From: a virus
Virus record (IMG/VR): IMGVR_UViG_3300043331_000099
Coordinates: 1-50,072 of that record
Strand: one strand, 5' to 3'
DNA length: 50,072 bases
This document shows, one piece after another, positions 33,475-47,063 of this stretch. Position 1 is the first letter of the stretch, and the number at the start of each line of letters is the position of its first letter. Made by a program: the position numbers and the translations under genes. Below the pieces are notes generated by a model. That model searched no databases. It had not been told where the DNA came from and was given only the letters and a program-made list of their open reading frames with translations.

Positions 33475-33563
33475 TTGTTCTTCTTAATATACTCTTCTTC
33501 GTGGCAAGGCTTGCTTTTTCCATCACAAGGATGGTAAGGCCATCCACAAGGACATTTAAGCAA
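33471..33563 (-). CDS. Cys/His-rich mini-protein (30 aa)
   Basis: A TTG start at 33563 lies 9 bases after GGAGGG; the frame overlaps the stop of the nuclease gene. The product has CPCGWPYHPCDGKSKPCHEEE: four Cys and two His in 17 residues, enough for one zinc site. The frame is open further upstream, but that part is a shadow of the nuclease gene. Confidence 0.4.
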   Translation of the reverse strand: MLKCPCGWPYHPCDGKSKPCHEEEYIKKNN

Positions 33564-34419
33564 GTATTTTACCCTCCCTATTAATCTCCGGGACGTCTGG
33601 CTTCTTCTCAACCTTCGATAAGTATACTGGCCCTTCCGAGTACAAGAAGGTTCTGAGTAGAGGAAAGCAGCAATGTTTATAAACTGAATAAGAAGCTTTT
33701 GTGCCAAGTCTGATATTTCCGCTCTTTCCGAACGGTTCAGTCTCGCATTCGCAAGGCGGCGGAGCATCCAGACTAACGATCTCCTTGTATTGTTTAATAC
33801 GTTCTCTGATGGCTTTTTCTCGGACGATGTGCTCATATAACACCATGTGTCCTAGTTGTTTGTCTATAGCTAGTATGTACCCTTTGTCTTTTACACGAAC
33901 CAAAGGGTCTTCACGGCTAGCCACCACGTACCCGTCAAGCTGGTCCAGATACCCAAAGCTGTCGCTTTGCTTAATGCTGCCGTCTTTGAACTTGATAAGG
34001 TTCCTGCTACTACTAGATTTGACATCAACCACGCACCCGTCGATAACGCAATCCCTATGCCCGGTGATACCATCCAGCTTAAGTTCATCTTGCTCTCCCT
34101 CTACTGTATGTCCAGCAGCCCTTGCAAGTGTTAATACTAAGGCTTCAAGGATATGACCGTAGCCATATTTAATGGATGCCCAGGGAGGCAAAGCTTCCGC
34201 AGCCTCTGGATTATTAACGGAGTACCATAGAGCCTTGGGGCACTGCGACCCCATTCTAGATAGTCTAAGTGTTCCTCTTCTAGGTTCTTTACTAAAGTGG
34301 GTTTGCATCCGCCTACTAATATCAGCGGAAAGGTAGGTGGCAAGAGTATCATCTAGCCAATTATCCTCTGAACTAACGGTGGCGTATATGTCCGCCACCA
34401 ATGTATTGATCTGTTTCAT
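33556..34419 (-). CDS. PD-(D/E)XK exonuclease (Cas4/RecB-like)
   Basis: 287 residues from ATG 34419, which overlaps the upstream stop as ATGA; the longer frame to 34533 is less likely. Core motif: GITGHRDCVIDGCVVDVKSSSS, giving the Asp and DxK of the PD-(D/E)XK fold, with a conserved upstream GSQCPKALWY Cys and downstream Cys-rich CECE...HCC that could hold a cluster as in Cas4-type enzymes. In T7-like phages a 5' exonuclease in this role removes primers and processes ends for recombination. Next to endonuclease I. Confidence 0.75.
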   Translation of the reverse strand: MKQINTLVADIYATVSSEDNWLDDTLATYLSADISRRMQTHFSKEPRRGTLRLSRMGSQCPKALWYSVNNPEAAEALPPWASIKYGYGHILEALVLTLARAAGHTVEGEQDELKLDGITGHRDCVIDGCVVDVKSSSSRNLIKFKDGSIKQSDSFGYLDQLDGYVVASREDPLVRVKDKGYILAIDKQLGHMVLYEHIVREKAIRERIKQYKEIVSLDAPPPCECETEPFGKSGNIRLGTKASYSVYKHCCFPLLRTFLYSEGPVYLSKVEKKPDVPEINREGKILA

Positions 34420-34730
34420 TTCAAGTTCTGTAATAATACTTCCTTCAGGAGAGTAAGGCTCCCTAGCCATGCTGCCAATGTTATTGGGCCTACTATTGGC
34501 CCCAGTGCTGTGAGTAGTAGAAATACCTGCCACGTATTGAACACCTTCTTGTTCAATGCAAACTCAGGCTTATGATCTTTCTTGTTCTTCCTCTCCTCTT
34601 CCTCTCGTTTCCTTTCCTTGGCTTCTTCCTGTCGTCGTAGAGCTTTCGTAATCTTCAGGAAGCCCTCGTATGGGTCAGGAGGAGGGGGAGGCATTCCGTA
34701 GTAGTAATTGTACGGGTAATGCTTAGGCAT
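34416..34730 (-). CDS. Membrane-associated protein with Pro-rich N-terminus (104 aa)
   Basis: MPKHYPYNYYYGMPPPPPDP, then a long charged helix (KALRRQEEAKERKREEEERKN), and a C-terminal hydrophobic segment (VFLLLTALGPIVGPITLAAWLG). GGGGAG lies 6 bases before ATG. The tail anchor plus coiled-coil rod suggest a membrane-tethered adaptor. Partner unknown. Lies just downstream of the candidate structured RNA. Confidence 0.6.
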   Translation of the reverse strand: MPKHYPYNYYYGMPPPPPDPYEGFLKITKALRRQEEAKERKREEEERKNKKDHKPEFALNKKVFNTWQVFLLLTALGPIVGPITLAAWLGSLTLLKEVLLQNLK

Positions 34731-34770
34731 TATTCTTCTCCCCGTCGTTATTGATTAACTATTATCAAAG

Positions 34771-34788
34771 GGCGACCTTTCGGCCGCC
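34771..34788 (-). other. GAAA-capped hairpin
   Basis: On the minus strand GGCGGCC, a GAAA tetraloop, then GGTCGCC (one G-U pair). No T-run follows, so it is more likely an RNA stability or processing element between the structured RNA and the next gene than a terminator. The GAAA reads correctly only on the minus strand, which supports a transcript in that direction. Confidence 0.6.
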
Positions 34789-34796
34789 GGTTAATG

Positions 34797-34835
34797 TTAA
34801 GGAGGTTGCTGGATTTGAGAAAAGTTCTTCTGCAT
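34797..34835 (-). CDS. Possible 12-residue peptide with strong ribosome site
   Basis: AAAGGAGG lies 7 bases ahead of ATG, among the best ribosome sites in the window, and the frame MQKNFSQIQQPP ends 8 bases before the GAAA hairpin. It could be a leader peptide or a remnant. It begins about 20 bases after the last helix of the structured RNA. Confidence 0.35.
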   Translation of the reverse strand: MQKNFSQIQQPP

Positions 34836-34855
34836 GTGGTTGCCTCCTTTCGTTA

Positions 34856-36089
34856 GAATGGATGCTTCCTGTTCTGCAAGAAGTGTTACTGGTGTCGCTA
34901 GCGGCAATAACACCACCCGAGTAGCGACTGGGCCTAGGACTAGTCGGCCACCATCCTCCGTATAACCCATTCCCTAGTTCATCACTTTGGGACGGACTAT
35001 GCAGAACCATGCCATTCATCCTCCTATATCCCTAGTTCTCCAGTTCAATAGGAAGATCAGCCATCGTACTCTTGTCATCTATGCAACTCTTGGTTGCATT
35101 TCATCCCCGGTTTCATAGACGCTGGCTAATGAGACCAGTGGGGAAGGCGAATACGACTCATTCCGCCATTCCAGCGTGGGAGTAACCTGTCTCAGAAACA
35201 GGTATATTCACTACCCAACGAGTAGCGCTCTCAGACACAACAGTTGTCCCAGTGGGACACTAATGGCGGTTCAAGACGACGCTCTTACTTTCCTCCGTAC
35301 CGGCAATGCAACCTTACAGAGAGGACGTCAACCCTCTATGCACGGTTTTCACACCGCAACCGTCCGCTAGTCATTCCACCTCTACCTCAGTATACTGTTA
35401 TGCTACCACGGGTAAATGAACCCGCCAGGATATCCCTGGTTAGCCCTAGGACAGCTAGGGCAGGCATCGAACCTACAGTTCAGTATACGGGGACTTTCAA
35501 CCCATCCATACTAATGGCAGGGACCTGTTGACCCGGTAGGGAATCGCACCCTAATGAGCGATGGCAGTCCAAGGTGGGACCATTTCCGGTGCACTGATGG
35601 ATTGCATCACGTCAGGTAATGGTCGGAGTACTGTGCCTCTTGTGGAGACAGGAGACCCGCCTTGTTGCTTATAGACACACCGTCACCAGATATGTCTACG
35701 TCTTCTGTTTGCCTATATCGTAGTATTTCTCTACGTGACCCGGAACACCGTCCCATTTGCTCACTACTAGGGCATTGGCCGCCCGTTGGCCTGTTGCTGG
35801 CTGATCTCGTCTGCCACCGGATGGGCGTGTTCGGTACAGTCCTACTTCCACTTCTTTTAGCCTCCAGGAGTGGTCCGGGATTTTACTACCCTCGGTAGTT
35901 GCTGTTGATTTCCGGCATTTGTTCCGGAAGATCAACAGGATTATGCGCTCACCTTTGGACAGGAGCGCACCTATAGCGCAGATGGATCGCAACTCCATCG
36001 TCTCCCTACCCACGCTAATCTGGCGTGTGGTGTCCTGAACCAGGAGATCTGTCAGTCCTGGCCGTCATGCGTTTCTGGACGATGCGCTA
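34856..36089 (-). ncRNA. Candidate giant structured non-coding RNA (about 1.23 kb)
   Basis: No believable gene fits here, yet perfect helices are dense. By minus-strand coordinates: TAGCGCA/TGCGCTA (36089/35974); GATGGA/TCCATC (35999/35981); TGCGCTC/GAGCGCA (35969/35944); CTGTTGAT-TTCCGG with CCGGAA-ATCAACAG (35938/35902); ACTACC/GGTAGT (35899/35885); CGTAG/CTACG (35735/35719); GACCATT/AATGGTC (35624/35578); TAGGG/CCCTA (35553/35537); CCAGG/CCTGG and CGGGT/ACCCG (35439-35409); TGTCCC/GGGACA (35259/35245); ACCTGT/ACAGGT (35203/35185); ACGCTGG/CCAGCGT enclosing GGCG-AAT/ATT-CGCC (35177-35119); ATGCAAC/GTTGCAT (35099/35081); and a 3' domain closed by GAATGG-GTTCTGCA with TGCAGAAC-CCATTC (35017-34856). 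Large phage RNAs such as GOLLD and ROOL have this character; whether this is one of them cannot be told by eye. No promoter of its own was found, so it may be cut from the leftward transcript. Confidence 0.6.
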
Positions 36090-36470
36090 AATCTGTAAAT
36101 CGTCTTCAGGCCTTGGAGCGTATCTGTCCTTCAAGGCTGGATTGTCCTTGTTGAACAAGGTTGGCTCCATGCCCTCTGAGAATTCATTCAATGGGCGTAA
36201 ATCTTCCGTGATCACAGGAGCGCTATCCCTACGCATCCTGTGGGTAGCCATGTATACGTATACCTCTGAGATCGTGTTGTTGCTCTTCAATAAGTTCTCC
36301 GCCCAATCCAAAGCTTCCATGTATGTAGCGAATTTAGTGCTACGGTTATGGTTGTTACCTAAGGCTACGTAATGCCTTGCTTTAGGATTGATCGTAGGTC
36401 CATCCTTCTTCTTCGATTTGAACGGAGGATCTATACGATCCATGTCGTTCCCAACAGGATTCTCAGCCAT
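36087..36470 (-). CDS. Hypothetical protein (127 aa)
   Basis: Start at ATG 36470, 2 bases after the previous stop, with GAGGT upstream. Contains ARHYVALGNNHNRSTKFATYMEAL, a small alpha/beta segment, then a Pro/Asp-rich tail (KDRYAPRPEDDLQI). Its stop codon is the first part of the 5' closing stem of the structured RNA. A longer frame up to 36692 exists but would override a well-placed small gene. Confidence 0.55.
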   Translation of the reverse strand: MAENPVGNDMDRIDPPFKSKKKDGPTINPKARHYVALGNNHNRSTKFATYMEALDWAENLLKSNNTISEVYVYMATHRMRRDSAPVITEDLRPLNEFSEGMEPTLFNKDNPALKDRYAPRPEDDLQI

Positions 36471-36472
36471 GA

Positions 36473-36577
36473 CTACCTCACTGGACGGTTGGGATAAGGA
36501 GACATCAGTCTGGCCTCTTTGTATGAACTCGCAGGAGGCCACTTCCGCGATCTGTTTAACTTCTGGTATTTCTTCAT
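36473..36577 (-). CDS. Small basic protein (34 aa)
   Basis: AGGAGG sits 4 bases before ATG. The basic product starts MKKYQKLNRSRKWPPASSYK and is followed 2 bases later by the next gene. The good ribosome site and tight spacing argue for translation. Function unknown. Confidence 0.45.
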   Translation of the reverse strand: MKKYQKLNRSRKWPPASSYKEARLMSPYPNRPVR

Positions 36578-36682
36578 CACTCCTCCTAGTTTGATAAGGG
36601 CGCGTCCCGCTATGGGAATTATGGCTTTCGCCTTTTTTAATACCGCTAGGATACGTTCTGATCCTACGTCGTGCCCTTAGTA

Positions 36683-37174
36683 CTACGACCACTGAGGAGG
36701 AGCATCAGGCAGACCCTTCTGCGCCTCCAGTTCATAATCCGCGAAACTACCTGTATCGAACGGAATTAAGTTATCAATCTTACTACTCAACCATCGAGCA
36801 GCAATCCCTTTATTGATACCCGTATGGCCTCCGCCATACGAGTAGACTTCTAACTTAGTGGTCACATCGGATCCATTACCGACGTCTTCATGTGTCTGGG
36901 TAACTCCATCTGGCCCAAATATTAATGGAGGAGTAAACCCAATAACCTTACCCCTCATTTCTCTAGAGGTAGGTCTGCTAAAGGTTATATAATAACCTTC
37001 GTCGTCCTTCTTTAGTACGTTCTTCAGTCCTTTCGCCTGAAGCTCTCTAATCTTTTCAACACCTTCGTTGTTAGGGTACATGTCGTGGGACCACTTACCA
37101 AACTTGTTTGGTTGTTTATAGCGGAACCACTTCACTTTACCCTGAATATTTACATGTTCTGTTCTACTTGCCAT
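36683..37174 (-). CDS. Putative ssDNA-binding protein (gp2.5-type, about 163 aa)
   Basis: ATG at 37174, overlapping the upstream stop; a TTG at 37183 is possible. The motif series GKVKWFRYKQPNKFGKWSHDMYPN, GYYITFSRPTSREMRGKVIGFTPP and NGSDVTTKLEVYSYG is typical of a phage family with an OB-fold-like core found next to the polymerase and helicase genes and usually called single-stranded DNA-binding. It lacks the long acidic tail of T7 gp2.5. Direct neighbour of the polymerase module. Confidence 0.6.
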   Translation of the reverse strand: MASRTEHVNIQGKVKWFRYKQPNKFGKWSHDMYPNNEGVEKIRELQAKGLKNVLKKDDEGYYITFSRPTSREMRGKVIGFTPPLIFGPDGVTQTHEDVGNGSDVTTKLEVYSYGGGHTGINKGIAARWLSSKIDNLIPFDTGSFADYELEAQKGLPDAPPQWS

Positions 37175-37343
37175 CGTTACCAATTTCTCTTATTGTATCA
37201 ATCCTTATATCTGTATAATCATCATACAAAGTCTTAATTTCTAACTCTGCTTTCTGCTCTGCATCCTCAATAGAGTTAGCTTCTAATTGAACTGAACCCC
37301 ACTCAGGATACTTAGCTTCAAACTCAACTTCGTATGTAGGCAT
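37164..37343 (-). CDS. Small acidic protein (59 aa)
   Basis: Three adjacent ATGs follow GAGGAG; the third (37343) has the best spacing. Sequence MPTYEVEFEAKYPEWGSVQL then an acidic helix (SIEDAEQKAELEIKTLYDD). Resembles small phage proteins with a beta-strand plus helix; function unknown. Overlaps both neighbours. Confidence 0.55.
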   Translation of the reverse strand: MPTYEVEFEAKYPEWGSVQLEANSIEDAEQKAELEIKTLYDDYTDIRIDTIREIGNDGK

Positions 37344-37479
37344 CATCATTCTCCTCAATGTATGTAGTACTCATTGGATTTAATCTTACTACTCTATACT
37401 CATGCCATCCATCTACTACTAAGTAGACGCATCGGCCATATACATCAATATCGTTCTCTAACTGATCTCTAATTATCAA
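37324..37479 (-). CDS. Hypothetical protein (51 aa)
   Basis: TTG start overlapping the polymerase stop, with GGAG 11 bases upstream. Encodes (M)IIRDQLENDIDVYGRCVYLV then a mixed tail, overlapping the next gene by 20 bases. The overlaps and a continuous, protein-like sequence support it. Confidence 0.45.
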   Translation of the reverse strand: MIIRDQLENDIDVYGRCVYLVVDGWHEYRVVRLNPMSTTYIEENDDAYIRS

Positions 37480-39794
37480 TGTGTTACACTCCAATTAGTG
37501 CCTATTGTATAGTCTTTGTGATCGTCATTCCAGTATGAGCCAGCTAAGGGACACCTTAGTCCTAGCTCTTCTCCTACTTCTTTTAAACTGTCTGCCTGTA
37601 TCTTTGCAATCTCCATTGCTATTTTCACATCATTAGGACACTCAGTCTGCCATTCGTCATGTACGAAATTAACTAACCAAGCATCATAATCCTTTAACTT
37701 AGGCTCCCACTTAAGAGTAGCCTTCTTCATTACTATCGCTTCCCCGCTCTGGAGATAACCAGACATAGCGAGATGTTTCCTCGCTCCCACAGTTTCTGCA
37801 GGTATGACAATAGGGCGATTATCGAGACCGCTGAACCACCCTTTCTTCGCGTCAGCGGGAATGACACGTTCTTTGAGGTCTTTAAGCCCCGTGTAACGTA
37901 CCATGAGACGCTCAAGTGCGCTTTTAGTCTCATCCTGGGATGCCACCAGGATTTCAGCCAGTTTTCCAATTCCCGCCCCCAGAAGTAGGGCGTATATGAA
38001 CCTTTTGGCTGCAGCCCTGGACTTGCACGAAGGACCAAGTATTCGCTGGTTGAGAGAGTGTGGATCTGTCTTGTCATCTTTTCTGCCCTCTACAAGAGAC
38101 TTAGTAAACTCTGGATCATTGATGTAATGTGCGAAGATCCTAAGCTGAATACCTTCTGCATCTACTCCTACTAATAACCTTCCTTTAGGAGCAATCCAAC
38201 ACGAACGCATCTCTTTGCCCAGGAGTTTCTTCTTACCCTGGGTATCGTATTCGTTGGGAATGTTAGCTGTGTTAGGCTCTTGATGAGCCATTCTTCCCGA
38301 CCACGCCCCCAGCCCATAAAACTTACCGTGAATTCTTTGTGAGATAATCTTGAAACTTATCGGAATACTTCTCATGCCAGCCAAGGGCACAGTTGCAATT
38401 GCGGCACAACAAGCCTCTAACTGTTCCTGACCTATGACAGTGATCGACGTTGAGTTTGCATTTTCTTTCACAGATGAGACATTTACCTTCTTGGTTTTCA
38501 GCCATTCTAGCAATGTCTTCCTGTGTAAGTCCGTACTGTCCTTTAAAATGTGCTTTTCTATTAGACTCTCTTGATTTTTCCAAATTGTTTGTGCGCCATT
38601 TTTTGTTCTTAGCTCGTTGTTTGTCGCGCCACTCTTTATCGGTTTTCCATTTGTTTCTATACCAAGAATTCCATTGTAATCGTGTTTTATTTCTATCTCG
38701 TGCCAAACTAATGAAATCCATTCTGTTAATGTCCGGCGACGGGCTTCTAACAATATCCGCCTTGCCAGAGCCCGTGCCGGAGCTGGAGCACTAGGAGGGA
38801 GAGTGCTCAAATTCTCTTCATCAATCTTCCATCCGTATACTTTCAAACTTACCATTTTACTATATAATGTTTGAAGTCTTATGTCAACCTCAGGTAATCT
38901 ATTCTTTTGATACTTAAGCCTGTTAATCTCTTGTTCAGTCTCAATATGAGTTTTAGTTTTGGCTGTAGGCTTCCAACCTGCTTCTGTAAGCACATCTACA
39001 AGTTGTTTATGACTGGATGGATTGAACTTCTCCAGACGAGTATGTCGGTAGGTTTTCCCTACTTCGTATTCTTGTATGTTATCCCACAATGATCGTGGCA
39101 CACTCGTCTTGGAGATTGTTCCAAACTTAGTAGCTTTGGGAGTAAATTCCCTAATCAATACTTCTCTAGGTGGAAAAGCTTCATTTATTTCTTTGTCTAA
39201 CGCATCAAGATCTTTAGTAACTCGATCAAGCAAACTTGTAGCACGGTTAGATGAGAAGCCAAAGCCATTATTGTGTAGATTATTTGTGACGAGTTGAAAT
39301 CTCTGTTCCAAATCGATCGCTGCAAAGTGTGATGGATTATGAATAAACCTATTATATTTATTGTAAATACGTTCACAAATGTCGACATCACGGACACAGT
39401 ATTCCTCCATTTCTTTTGAGTACTTACTAAAGTCATTAAAGTCTAGCTTATCAATCCCAAACTCACTTCCATAAGCTTCGATGGAGTGTCCGTTGGACCT
39501 GGAGTAATCGATAAGCTTGCTGATAACCAGAGTATCATAAGATATAGAACATATATCATCATGAACAATGTGAAGGAGATTAGAAAGGTTAGGCCAATCG
39601 TAGCCGAGGAAATTGTGGCCAACATAACGTTCCACCTTCTGATGAAACGCACAAAACGAAGCTCGTTCTCGTTCATCATCTGTAACGTTCCTCCATATGT
39701 AATATTGCCCTGTGTCTATGTCTTTACAGACAATAACCCAGATCTTAGTAGGATTAACTAATCCATTACATTCTATGTCTATTGTTACTTTCAA
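37476..39794 (-). CDS. DNA polymerase, family A, with a large insertion
   Basis: 772 residues, TTG start without a clear ribosome site. 3'-5' exonuclease motif I DIECNGL at residues 6-12. Palm motif A VGVDAEGIQLRIF with catalytic Asp545, fingers motif RAAAKRFIYALLLGAG (motif B), and motif C VHDEWQTE with Asp713. T7 polymerase relatives have only a few residues between the thumb sequence TEWISL and RIHG; here residues 363-486 are inserted and coincide with the nested HNH gene. Without them the protein would be about 655 residues, near the family norm. The insertion may be translated, bypassed or removed from RNA. Replicates the phage genome. Confidence 0.85.
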   Translation of the reverse strand: MKVTIDIECNGLVNPTKIWVIVCKDIDTGQYYIWRNVTDDERERASFCAFHQKVERYVGHNFLGYDWPNLSNLLHIVHDDICSISYDTLVISKLIDYSRSNGHSIEAYGSEFGIDKLDFNDFSKYSKEMEEYCVRDVDICERIYNKYNRFIHNPSHFAAIDLEQRFQLVTNNLHNNGFGFSSNRATSLLDRVTKDLDALDKEINEAFPPREVLIREFTPKATKFGTISKTSVPRSLWDNIQEYEVGKTYRHTRLEKFNPSSHKQLVDVLTEAGWKPTAKTKTHIETEQEINRLKYQKNRLPEVDIRLQTLYSKMVSLKVYGWKIDEENLSTLPPSAPAPARALARRILLEARRRTLTEWISLVWHEIEIKHDYNGILGIETNGKPIKSGATNNELRTKNGAQTIWKNQESLIEKHILKDSTDLHRKTLLEWLKTKKVNVSSVKENANSTSITVIGQEQLEACCAAIATVPLAGMRSIPISFKIISQRIHGKFYGLGAWSGRMAHQEPNTANIPNEYDTQGKKKLLGKEMRSCWIAPKGRLLVGVDAEGIQLRIFAHYINDPEFTKSLVEGRKDDKTDPHSLNQRILGPSCKSRAAAKRFIYALLLGAGIGKLAEILVASQDETKSALERLMVRYTGLKDLKERVIPADAKKGWFSGLDNRPIVIPAETVGARKHLAMSGYLQSGEAIVMKKATLKWEPKLKDYDAWLVNFVHDEWQTECPNDVKIAMEIAKIQADSLKEVGEELGLRCPLAGSYWNDDHKDYTIGTNWSVTH
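38323..38721 (-). CDS. HNH (endonuclease VII-type) homing endonuclease nested in the polymerase gene
   Basis: 132 residues in a frame one base ahead of the polymerase frame. Zinc/HNH core CLICERKCKLNVDHCHRSG followed by VRGLLCRNCNCALGWHEKY, typical of recombination endonuclease VII-like HNH enzymes. The ATG lies in the polymerase codons for TEWIS and the TAA in those for HGK, so the gene almost exactly fills the insertion. No ribosome site precedes the ATG. A promoter-like sequence lies 138 bases upstream. Probably a mobile element targeting the conserved polymerase site. Confidence 0.8.
   Translation of the reverse strand: MDFISLARDRNKTRLQWNSWYRNKWKTDKEWRDKQRAKNKKWRTNNLEKSRESNRKAHFKGQYGLTQEDIARMAENQEGKCLICERKCKLNVDHCHRSGTVRGLLCRNCNCALGWHEKYSDKFQDYLTKNSR
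38859..38887 (-). promoter_or_regulatory. Promoter-like sequence inside the polymerase gene
   Basis: TTGACA (38887-38882), a 17-base spacer and TATAGT (38864-38859) on the minus strand, upstream of the nested HNH gene. It may drive that gene independently, or be chance. Confidence 0.4.
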
Positions 39795-46976: not shown

Positions 46977-47063
46977 TGGTACCCACGACAGGAATCGAAC
47001 CTGCACGCCATTATTGGCTAGGGATTTTAAGTCCCTTGCGTCTACCTATTCCGCCACGTGGGT
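46977..47063 (-). tRNA. tRNA-Leu(UAA)
   Basis: 87 bases with CCA encoded. Acceptor ACCCACG/CGTGGGT, D arm GCGGAATAGGTAGACGC, anticodon arm AGGGA-CTTAAAA-TCCCT with anticodon TAA, a long class II variable arm (AGCCAATAATGGCGT), and T arm GCAGG-TTCGATT-CCTGT. All arms are canonical. It would read UUA (and UUG), a codon frequent in this AT-leaning genome and often rare in GC-rich hosts. Confidence 0.93.

Follow-up and report, generated by a model that had tools for sequence, protein, structure and literature searches.

The window analysed here, a virus record of 50,072 bases from IMG/VR, carries on its minus strand a giant non-coding structured RNA of approximately 1.3 kb (positions 36086 to 34771) that belongs to a new family; RNA structure and conservation establish this, in the absence of expression data. 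The RNA, a micro-ORF ending in Pro-Pro-stop and the gene of a small single-span membrane protein form one conserved module, whose mechanism can only be inferred. The module is confined to a single phage clade, which is known from metagenomes alone.

A giant structured RNA on the minus strand

A previous, sequence-only reading had proposed that positions 34856 to 36089 lack a credible gene and hold a giant structured phage RNA between replication genes, probably transcribed from the minus strand. The first claim held: no credible long gene appeared among the open reading frames of this stretch, and stops occur throughout its three sense frames (18, 22 and 26 in about 410 codons each). As a sign of structure, that reading had counted at least 15 perfect helices of 5 bp or more; helix counting alone is no evidence, while covariation in relatives is. 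Folding of the minus strand between 34770 and 36086 gave a minimum free energy (MFE) of -479.9 kcal/mol (z = -3.9; none of 60 dinucleotide shuffles was as low), against z = -2.3 for the plus strand and -2.1 and -2.3 for two coding controls. The minus-strand RNA is hence favoured, although its transcription leftward with the replication genes remains an inference without expression data. Pattern counts for intrinsic terminators and sigma-70 promoters at the RNA did not exceed chance level.

The 5' end of the RNA lies near 36086, next to the stop of the upstream gene at 36087, and its 3' end is at or after a hairpin at 34771. The left edge at 34856 had thus cut off the most informative end of the element. 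The GAAA-capped hairpin previously placed just beyond the stretch falls inside the corrected element (34771-34788), and the Pro-Pro-stop micro-ORF, the tRNA-like elements and the downstream membrane protein had been missed.

The RNA is conserved and covaries in one phage clade

We fetched relatives from IMG/VR through the adjacent DNA polymerase and Cas4-like exonuclease. A non-coding stretch of 1.2-1.9 kb between the SSB-like gene and the exonuclease was found in about 80 related phages, and in the close clade the order polymerase, SSB-like gene, non-coding stretch, small ORF, exonuclease is kept. The two anchors in the window, both on the minus strand, are the SSB-like protein upstream (36683-37183), named by position for want of a family match, and the Cas4-like exonuclease downstream (33556-34533; PHROG 1990, 3e-22), whose true start is probably further in. 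The stretch is missing in the nearest cultured relatives, the Cobavirinae (Roseobacter phage CRP-4), as well as in the oyster Cobavirinae record PQ867845 and Sinorhizobium phage phiM6; in these and in more distant phages, either the SSB gene adjoins the exonuclease or the stretch is lacking. It is from this presence in the close clade and absence from distant and cultured phages that we conclude clade specificity. We found no isolate and no GTDB genome holding the module, a host search through GTDB genomes gave no match, and no nucleotide similarity to the RNA region was found in annotated phages. Distant members show low nucleotide similarity to one another.

Several neighbouring genes deserve mention in their own right. 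Between the SSB-like gene and the RNA, the window has a 201-aa gene (36087-36692, minus strand) without family match, similar only to parts of two relatives (L052 and L056). Its DNA polymerase (37476-39794, minus strand) bears an in-frame insert of about 110 residues (377-486), missing in relatives and overlain in another frame by an HNH-type endonuclease ORF (38323-38721, minus strand); it may represent an inserted homing endonuclease or else a small intron, with no intron match in Rfam. Three relatives (L005, L017 and L019) have an extra 174-aa gene between the small membrane ORF and the exonuclease, with the motif MxxxKWFIxxTHFFHxNxx..., metallophosphoesterase-like by eye.

Covariation was assessed in an alignment of nine sequences from one subgroup, approximately 65-80% identical, with helices taken from RNAalifold (run in Python) at a pair probability above 0.6. 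This gave 204 pairs in 36 helices, with 92.6% of cells paired. Changes on both sides were seen in 100 of the 204 pairs (219 cells), compared to 19-24 pairs (23-37 cells) when partners were slid and 50 pairs (70 cells) in a shuffled control. Since the structure was derived from the same alignment, the percentage paired is inflated; in our judgement this cannot explain the excess of double changes over the slid versions. The length of most indels between close members is not divisible by three, and many stops interrupt every sense frame. The proposal of a giant structured phage RNA between replication genes is therefore supported by position in about 80 phages, lack of a coding frame, frame-breaking indels and strong covariation. 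A lack of covariation, or conserved coding frames, would have refuted it; both were checked in homologues and the RNA survived.

The RNA body of the window did not align to the nine-sequence subgroup analysed for covariation, and the window is itself a divergent member of the family. Comparison with relatives revealed in it a block of conserved sequence, CC-GGTGGCAGACGAGATCAGCCAGC, immediately preceded by a covarying hairpin (together 35796-35880, minus strand). The sequence of this hairpin is wholly different between the window (CCACT..AGTGG) and relatives (CCTTA..TAAGG, CTCCGA..TCGGAG, GTCTC..GAGAC), yet it is paired in each. Another hairpin, CTGG-TCTCATTAG-CCAG (35122-35138, minus strand), is common to relatives (CYGGTCTCATTAGCYRG). 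A blind search of all viral contigs with GGTGNCANACGNGATCAGNCNGC, the block whose primary sequence is best conserved in the window's subgroup, returned 12 matches, seven of them known members and five new. Two of the new ones (L237 and L244) have Pro-Pro-stop micro-ORFs about 1.1 and 0.8 kb downstream, together with T-arms. The other three (L238, L239 and L243) lack the module and were discarded as chance.

A Pro-Pro-stop micro-ORF closes the RNA

Between the GAAA-capped hairpin and position 34856, the window has a micro-ORF of 12 codons (34797-34835, minus strand; ATG CAG AAG AAC TTT TCT CAA ATC CAG CAA CCT CCT TAA), encoding MQKNFSQIQQPP and ending in Pro-Pro-stop. Its Shine-Dalgarno sequence, AAAGGAGG (34843-34850, minus strand), is kept in relatives. 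A short frame led by a Shine-Dalgarno and ending in Pro-Pro-stop is present in all 79 complete gaps of the clade (79/79), and it almost always closes the non-coding stretch. Among ATG frames with a Shine-Dalgarno, this ending was found in 63 of 161 on the sense strand, 0 of 52 on the antisense strand and 1 of 441 in the background elsewhere.

In a stricter set of 75 sequences, all four codons (CCT, CCA, CCC and CCG) are used for the first proline, the second is mostly CCT, and, with few exceptions, the stop is TAA. Before the two prolines stands Gln (32) or Arg (25), and the micro-ORF bodies are unrelated between subgroups. Substitutions in close relatives are synonymous (AGA/CGA, CCC/CCT). 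A few picks in this set are wrong (in L082/L085, for instance, the true frame is likely MKNEFKSVRPTLSEQLFPQPP followed by a stop), and near-duplicates make the counts overstate independent events. The Pro-Pro-stop peptide is selected at the amino-acid level; arrest in the real host is inferred. Keeping of CCTCCTTAA as an anti-Shine-Dalgarno RNA motif was rejected as the main reason, because all four synonyms occur as the first proline codon.

Pro-Pro ahead of a stop disturbs termination and arrests E. coli ribosomes "in all genetic contexts tested" (PMC3834316). It is a favoured site for tmRNA and is under-represented at normal protein C-termini (PMC3985003). In an E. coli expression library the effect was only modest, and its strength may differ between species (PMC7246954). 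The micro-ORF resembles YbeL-PP and arrest leader peptides in that a C-terminal Pro-Pro before the stop stalls termination; the difference is that here a natural micro-ORF is conserved at the end of a giant RNA across a whole phage clade.

Eight nucleotides after the stop begins the GC-rich, GAAA-capped hairpin of the window (GGCGGCC-GAAA-GGTCGCC; 34771-34788, minus strand). In relatives the post-stop hairpin usually starts within 15 nt of the stop, at varying distance. Across the family these hairpins are stronger than shuffles on average, though only 43% exceed the 95th percentile of the shuffles. A role in sequestering the Shine-Dalgarno of the next gene was discarded for the window, whose hairpin does not contain it.

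tRNA-like elements in permuted order

Antisense ORF translations such as 'VGFEPT' in the ORF lists of relatives gave away T-arms. Perfect T-arms (5 bp plus TTCRANY) numbered 92 on the RNA-sense strand of the gaps, 1 on the antisense strand and 18 in the other 1.57 Mb. In an unbiased test on T-loop 9-mers, requiring only the loop and its closing pair, the stem was fully paired in 105 of 164 sense cases, against 0 of 19 antisense and 5 of 212 in the rest of the contigs; all Watson-Crick pairs are represented at the variable stem positions. In many relatives a hairpin occupies the acceptor-stem position after the T-arm, and next comes TGGCGAAATNGGCAAACGCA, which we take to read like the D-arm of a tRNA-Leu: a circularly permuted order.

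The three stems covary in 13 such elements, with 39 double-change cells against 5-12 when partners were slid. Invariant in all 13 are the GG of the D-loop and the UUC.A of the T-loop, bases that are in contact in real tRNA. In relatives, a further helix joins the strand preceding the T-arm to the one following the D-arm (P2; partner-swap p 0.0008). A covariance model of the element (R1) matched 75 places at E<=1 in 87 sources, 72 of them on the sense strand and nearly all in the gap; real tRNA-Leu genes gave weak cross-matches. The acceptor is capped by a short loop in many members and missing in L003, L058 and L069, which makes charging very unlikely.

Relatives meet the criteria for an elbow mimic (a 5-bp T-stem, a UUCRANY loop, GG in the D-loop and covarying stems), while the window offers only near-consensus T-loops and an inferred D-arm. 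Its two T-arm-like hairpins, both on the minus strand like the elements below, are TAGGG-TGCGATT-CCCTA (35537-35553; R1 match 35493-35567, E 1e-4) and GTAGG-TTCGATG-CCTGC (35460-35476; R1 match 35428-35490, E 2e-3). These matches are weak, obtained in a targeted 1.5-kb search and unlisted in a 1-Mb search. Directly after the second T-arm comes an acceptor-like stem with a loop (CCTAG-CTGTC-CTAGG; 35445-35459), in the same order as in relatives. By position we infer a putative D-arm equivalent (35402-35444), GCTA (35444-35441) pairing with TAGC (35405-35402); it has GG at 35407-35406 and a loop enlarged by two hairpins, and matches R1 poorly. A P2-like helix of 8 bp, read from the sequence and from the MFE and centroid folds, encloses this second element: GTATACTG (35488-35481) with CAGTATAC (35397-35390), spanning 35390-35488.

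Complete or intron-bearing tRNAs were rejected as the source of the T-arms: a single relative (L006) has one complete tRNA, and ARAGORN matches in intron mode were scattered and inconsistent. ARAGORN, with or without introns, found no tRNA in the window's stretch. The complete tRNA is a tRNA-Ile (GAT) at L006:11425-11496, inside the homologous non-coding stretch. The window phage also has an ordinary tRNA-Leu (TAA) at 46977-47063 (minus strand), as does L019; the giant RNAs imitate the D-arm of this very tRNA type. As a separate observation, unrelated phages have small RNAs in the same permuted order of T-arm, capped acceptor stem and tRNA-Leu-like D-arm (L117:770-820, L124:7956-8008, L126:222-274, L198:6057-6112 and L222:6702-6760; also L170 and L184). 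They lie mostly inside or near tRNA arrays, several have perfect outer helices of 8-11 bp, and neither ARAGORN nor Rfam calls them.

A small protein with one hydrophobic span lies downstream

The window encodes a protein of 104 aa after the micro-ORF (34416-34730, minus strand), with a Pro/Tyr-rich start, a K/E-rich middle and one hydrophobic C-terminal span. In nearly all relatives there is a protein of 72-118 aa whose middle is rich in K/E and which has a single hydrophobic span close to its end; GPxxG is often present, and the gene lies 13-230 nt (mostly 42-105 nt) from the micro-ORF. No Pfam match was found for the window's protein or those of two relatives, and no PHROG match for the window's. 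The linkage of this gene to the RNA module is shown; binding of the protein to membranes is inferred.

Discussion

The best model that we can offer is a ribosome-bound, perhaps membrane-tethered phage ribonucleoprotein (RNP) held by stalling at Pro-Pro-stop; it is the likeliest of the readings considered here, though we are slightly more inclined to doubt it than to accept it. According to this model, a host ribosome would start at the strong Shine-Dalgarno, make a peptide of 9-33 residues and stall at Pro-Pro-UAA because release is slow. The GC-rich hairpin behind the stop would abut the stalled ribosome and impede both rescue and 3' exonucleases, so that the ribosome would stay fixed to the 3' end of the large folded RNA. 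The tRNA-elbow mimics, with T-arm and D-arm permuted and an acceptor that is capped and therefore not chargeable, may contact the stalled or neighbouring ribosomes, or a tRNA-binding factor, and the complex may be anchored in the membrane by the small membrane protein. Host translation would then come under phage control, or the product would be an RNP that contains ribosomes. In support, pull-downs have shown GOLLD bound to ribosomes (PMC12286853).

Arrest in the real host, ribosome binding, membrane binding and the biological outcome are all inferred. There are no expression data and no known host, and arrest at Pro-Pro-stop is known from E. coli reporters only. No direct evidence indicates that RNA, peptide and membrane protein meet, the strength and distance of the post-stop hairpin are uneven, and in the window itself the tRNA-like elements are weak. 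Regulation of the membrane gene downstream would be an equally possible role of the micro-ORF.

This last possibility is the rival that survives best: a regulatory leader in which arrest micro-ORF and hairpin control the small membrane protein, the giant RNA being an elaborate sensor or attenuator. We consider it possible and a serious contender. SecM, MifM and VemP leaders control their targets, and arrest peptides often lead membrane-insertion genes (cf. CliM, PMC13183943). In its favour is also the constant position of the micro-ORF at short distance before the membrane-protein gene. Against it, the window's post-stop hairpin lacks the next gene's Shine-Dalgarno, the RNA far exceeds known leaders in size and shows covariation along most of its length, and the arrest motif is a generic Pro-Pro-stop with no specific sensing sequence.

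A second serious rival, albeit an unlikely one, is a self-assembling RNA cage like GOLLD or ROOL, in which the elbows would be tertiary-contact modules and the micro-ORF would only protect or end the transcript. Our RNA resembles these RNA-only cages (PMC12286853) in being phage-borne, very large, ornate, of unknown function and often linked to tRNAs; the complete tRNA-Ile in one relative recalls the tRNAs in GOLLD linkers. However, at the gathering threshold the window and eight relatives gave no Rfam match to GOLLD, ROOL, HEARO, OLE or tmRNA, and a loose search (E<=5) of window positions 34700-36200 gave nothing. The sequence-only reading had left the choice between a GOLLD- or ROOL-like RNA and a new class; at Rfam sensitivity GOLLD, ROOL, HEARO and OLE are excluded and the new class remains. 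Neither GOLLD nor ROOL is described as ending in an arrest micro-ORF, whereas the module here includes one, plus a membrane protein and built-in tRNA-like elbows in permuted order. The cage would also leave the codon-level keeping of the terminal Pro-Pro unexplained.

A degenerate or analogous tmRNA, with a permuted tRNA-like domain and a short frame used in trans-translation, is very unlikely and close to refuted. One RNA does unite both parts, and the order T-arm, acceptor, D-arm and then an ORF near the 3' end is that of circularly permuted, two-piece tmRNA genes (for the permutation, see PMC3985003; the exact gene order is general knowledge). Yet a chargeable acceptor, with G-U pair and CCA, is not present, stems being capped or missing with no place for CCA in many members; the D-arm is of tRNA-Leu type, unlike the deformed D-arm of tmRNA; the frame has its own Shine-Dalgarno and start codon and ends in Pro-Pro-stop; and neither ARAGORN nor Rfam detected a tmRNA. 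In permuted tRNA genes, too, the T-arm and the 3' strand of the acceptor precede its 5' strand and the D-arm, but here the acceptor loop is often too short for a discriminator base and CCA, and the acceptor is sometimes missing. A complete tRNA (7-bp acceptor, room for CCA, anticodon arm) cannot be reconstituted from an element that is embedded in a 1.3-kb RNA. Finally, a decayed coding region or assembly artefact, to which the low nucleotide similarity of distant members might point, is all but excluded by conservation in independent contigs from many metagenomes, compensatory changes, stops in every frame and mostly frame-breaking indels.

Returning to the membrane-tethered RNP, a close likeness is OLE RNA with its protein OapA, a large ornate RNA working with a small membrane protein (in our family such work is only inferred) and localising to membranes (PMC12265935). 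OLE hosts are Gram-positive, whereas our RNA is phage-borne and unmatched by the OLE model of Rfam; it is accompanied by an analogous membrane protein, which has no Pfam match, and no OapA-specific model was compared. To our knowledge no RNA combines the parts described here, which are known separately, and we therefore regard the combination as categorically new, large ornate phage RNAs as such being already a known kind. A bolder reading, which we consider possible, is a new class of phage RNP with uncharged permuted tRNA-elbow mimics and its own arrest micro-ORF, whose stalling at Pro-Pro-stop would keep host ribosomes on the RNA; tethered to the membrane by the co-encoded single-span protein, it would control translation during infection.

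Very few known RNA classes of bacteria and phages reach this size, and what GOLLD, ROOL and OLE do is still unsettled. The present family adds two strong clues absent from these: mimics of the tRNA elbow, and a conserved arrest micro-ORF that directs attention to the ribosome. Its anatomy hence points to the ribosome, and perhaps also to the membrane, and the purpose of giant phage RNAs becomes testable on a single defined RNA.
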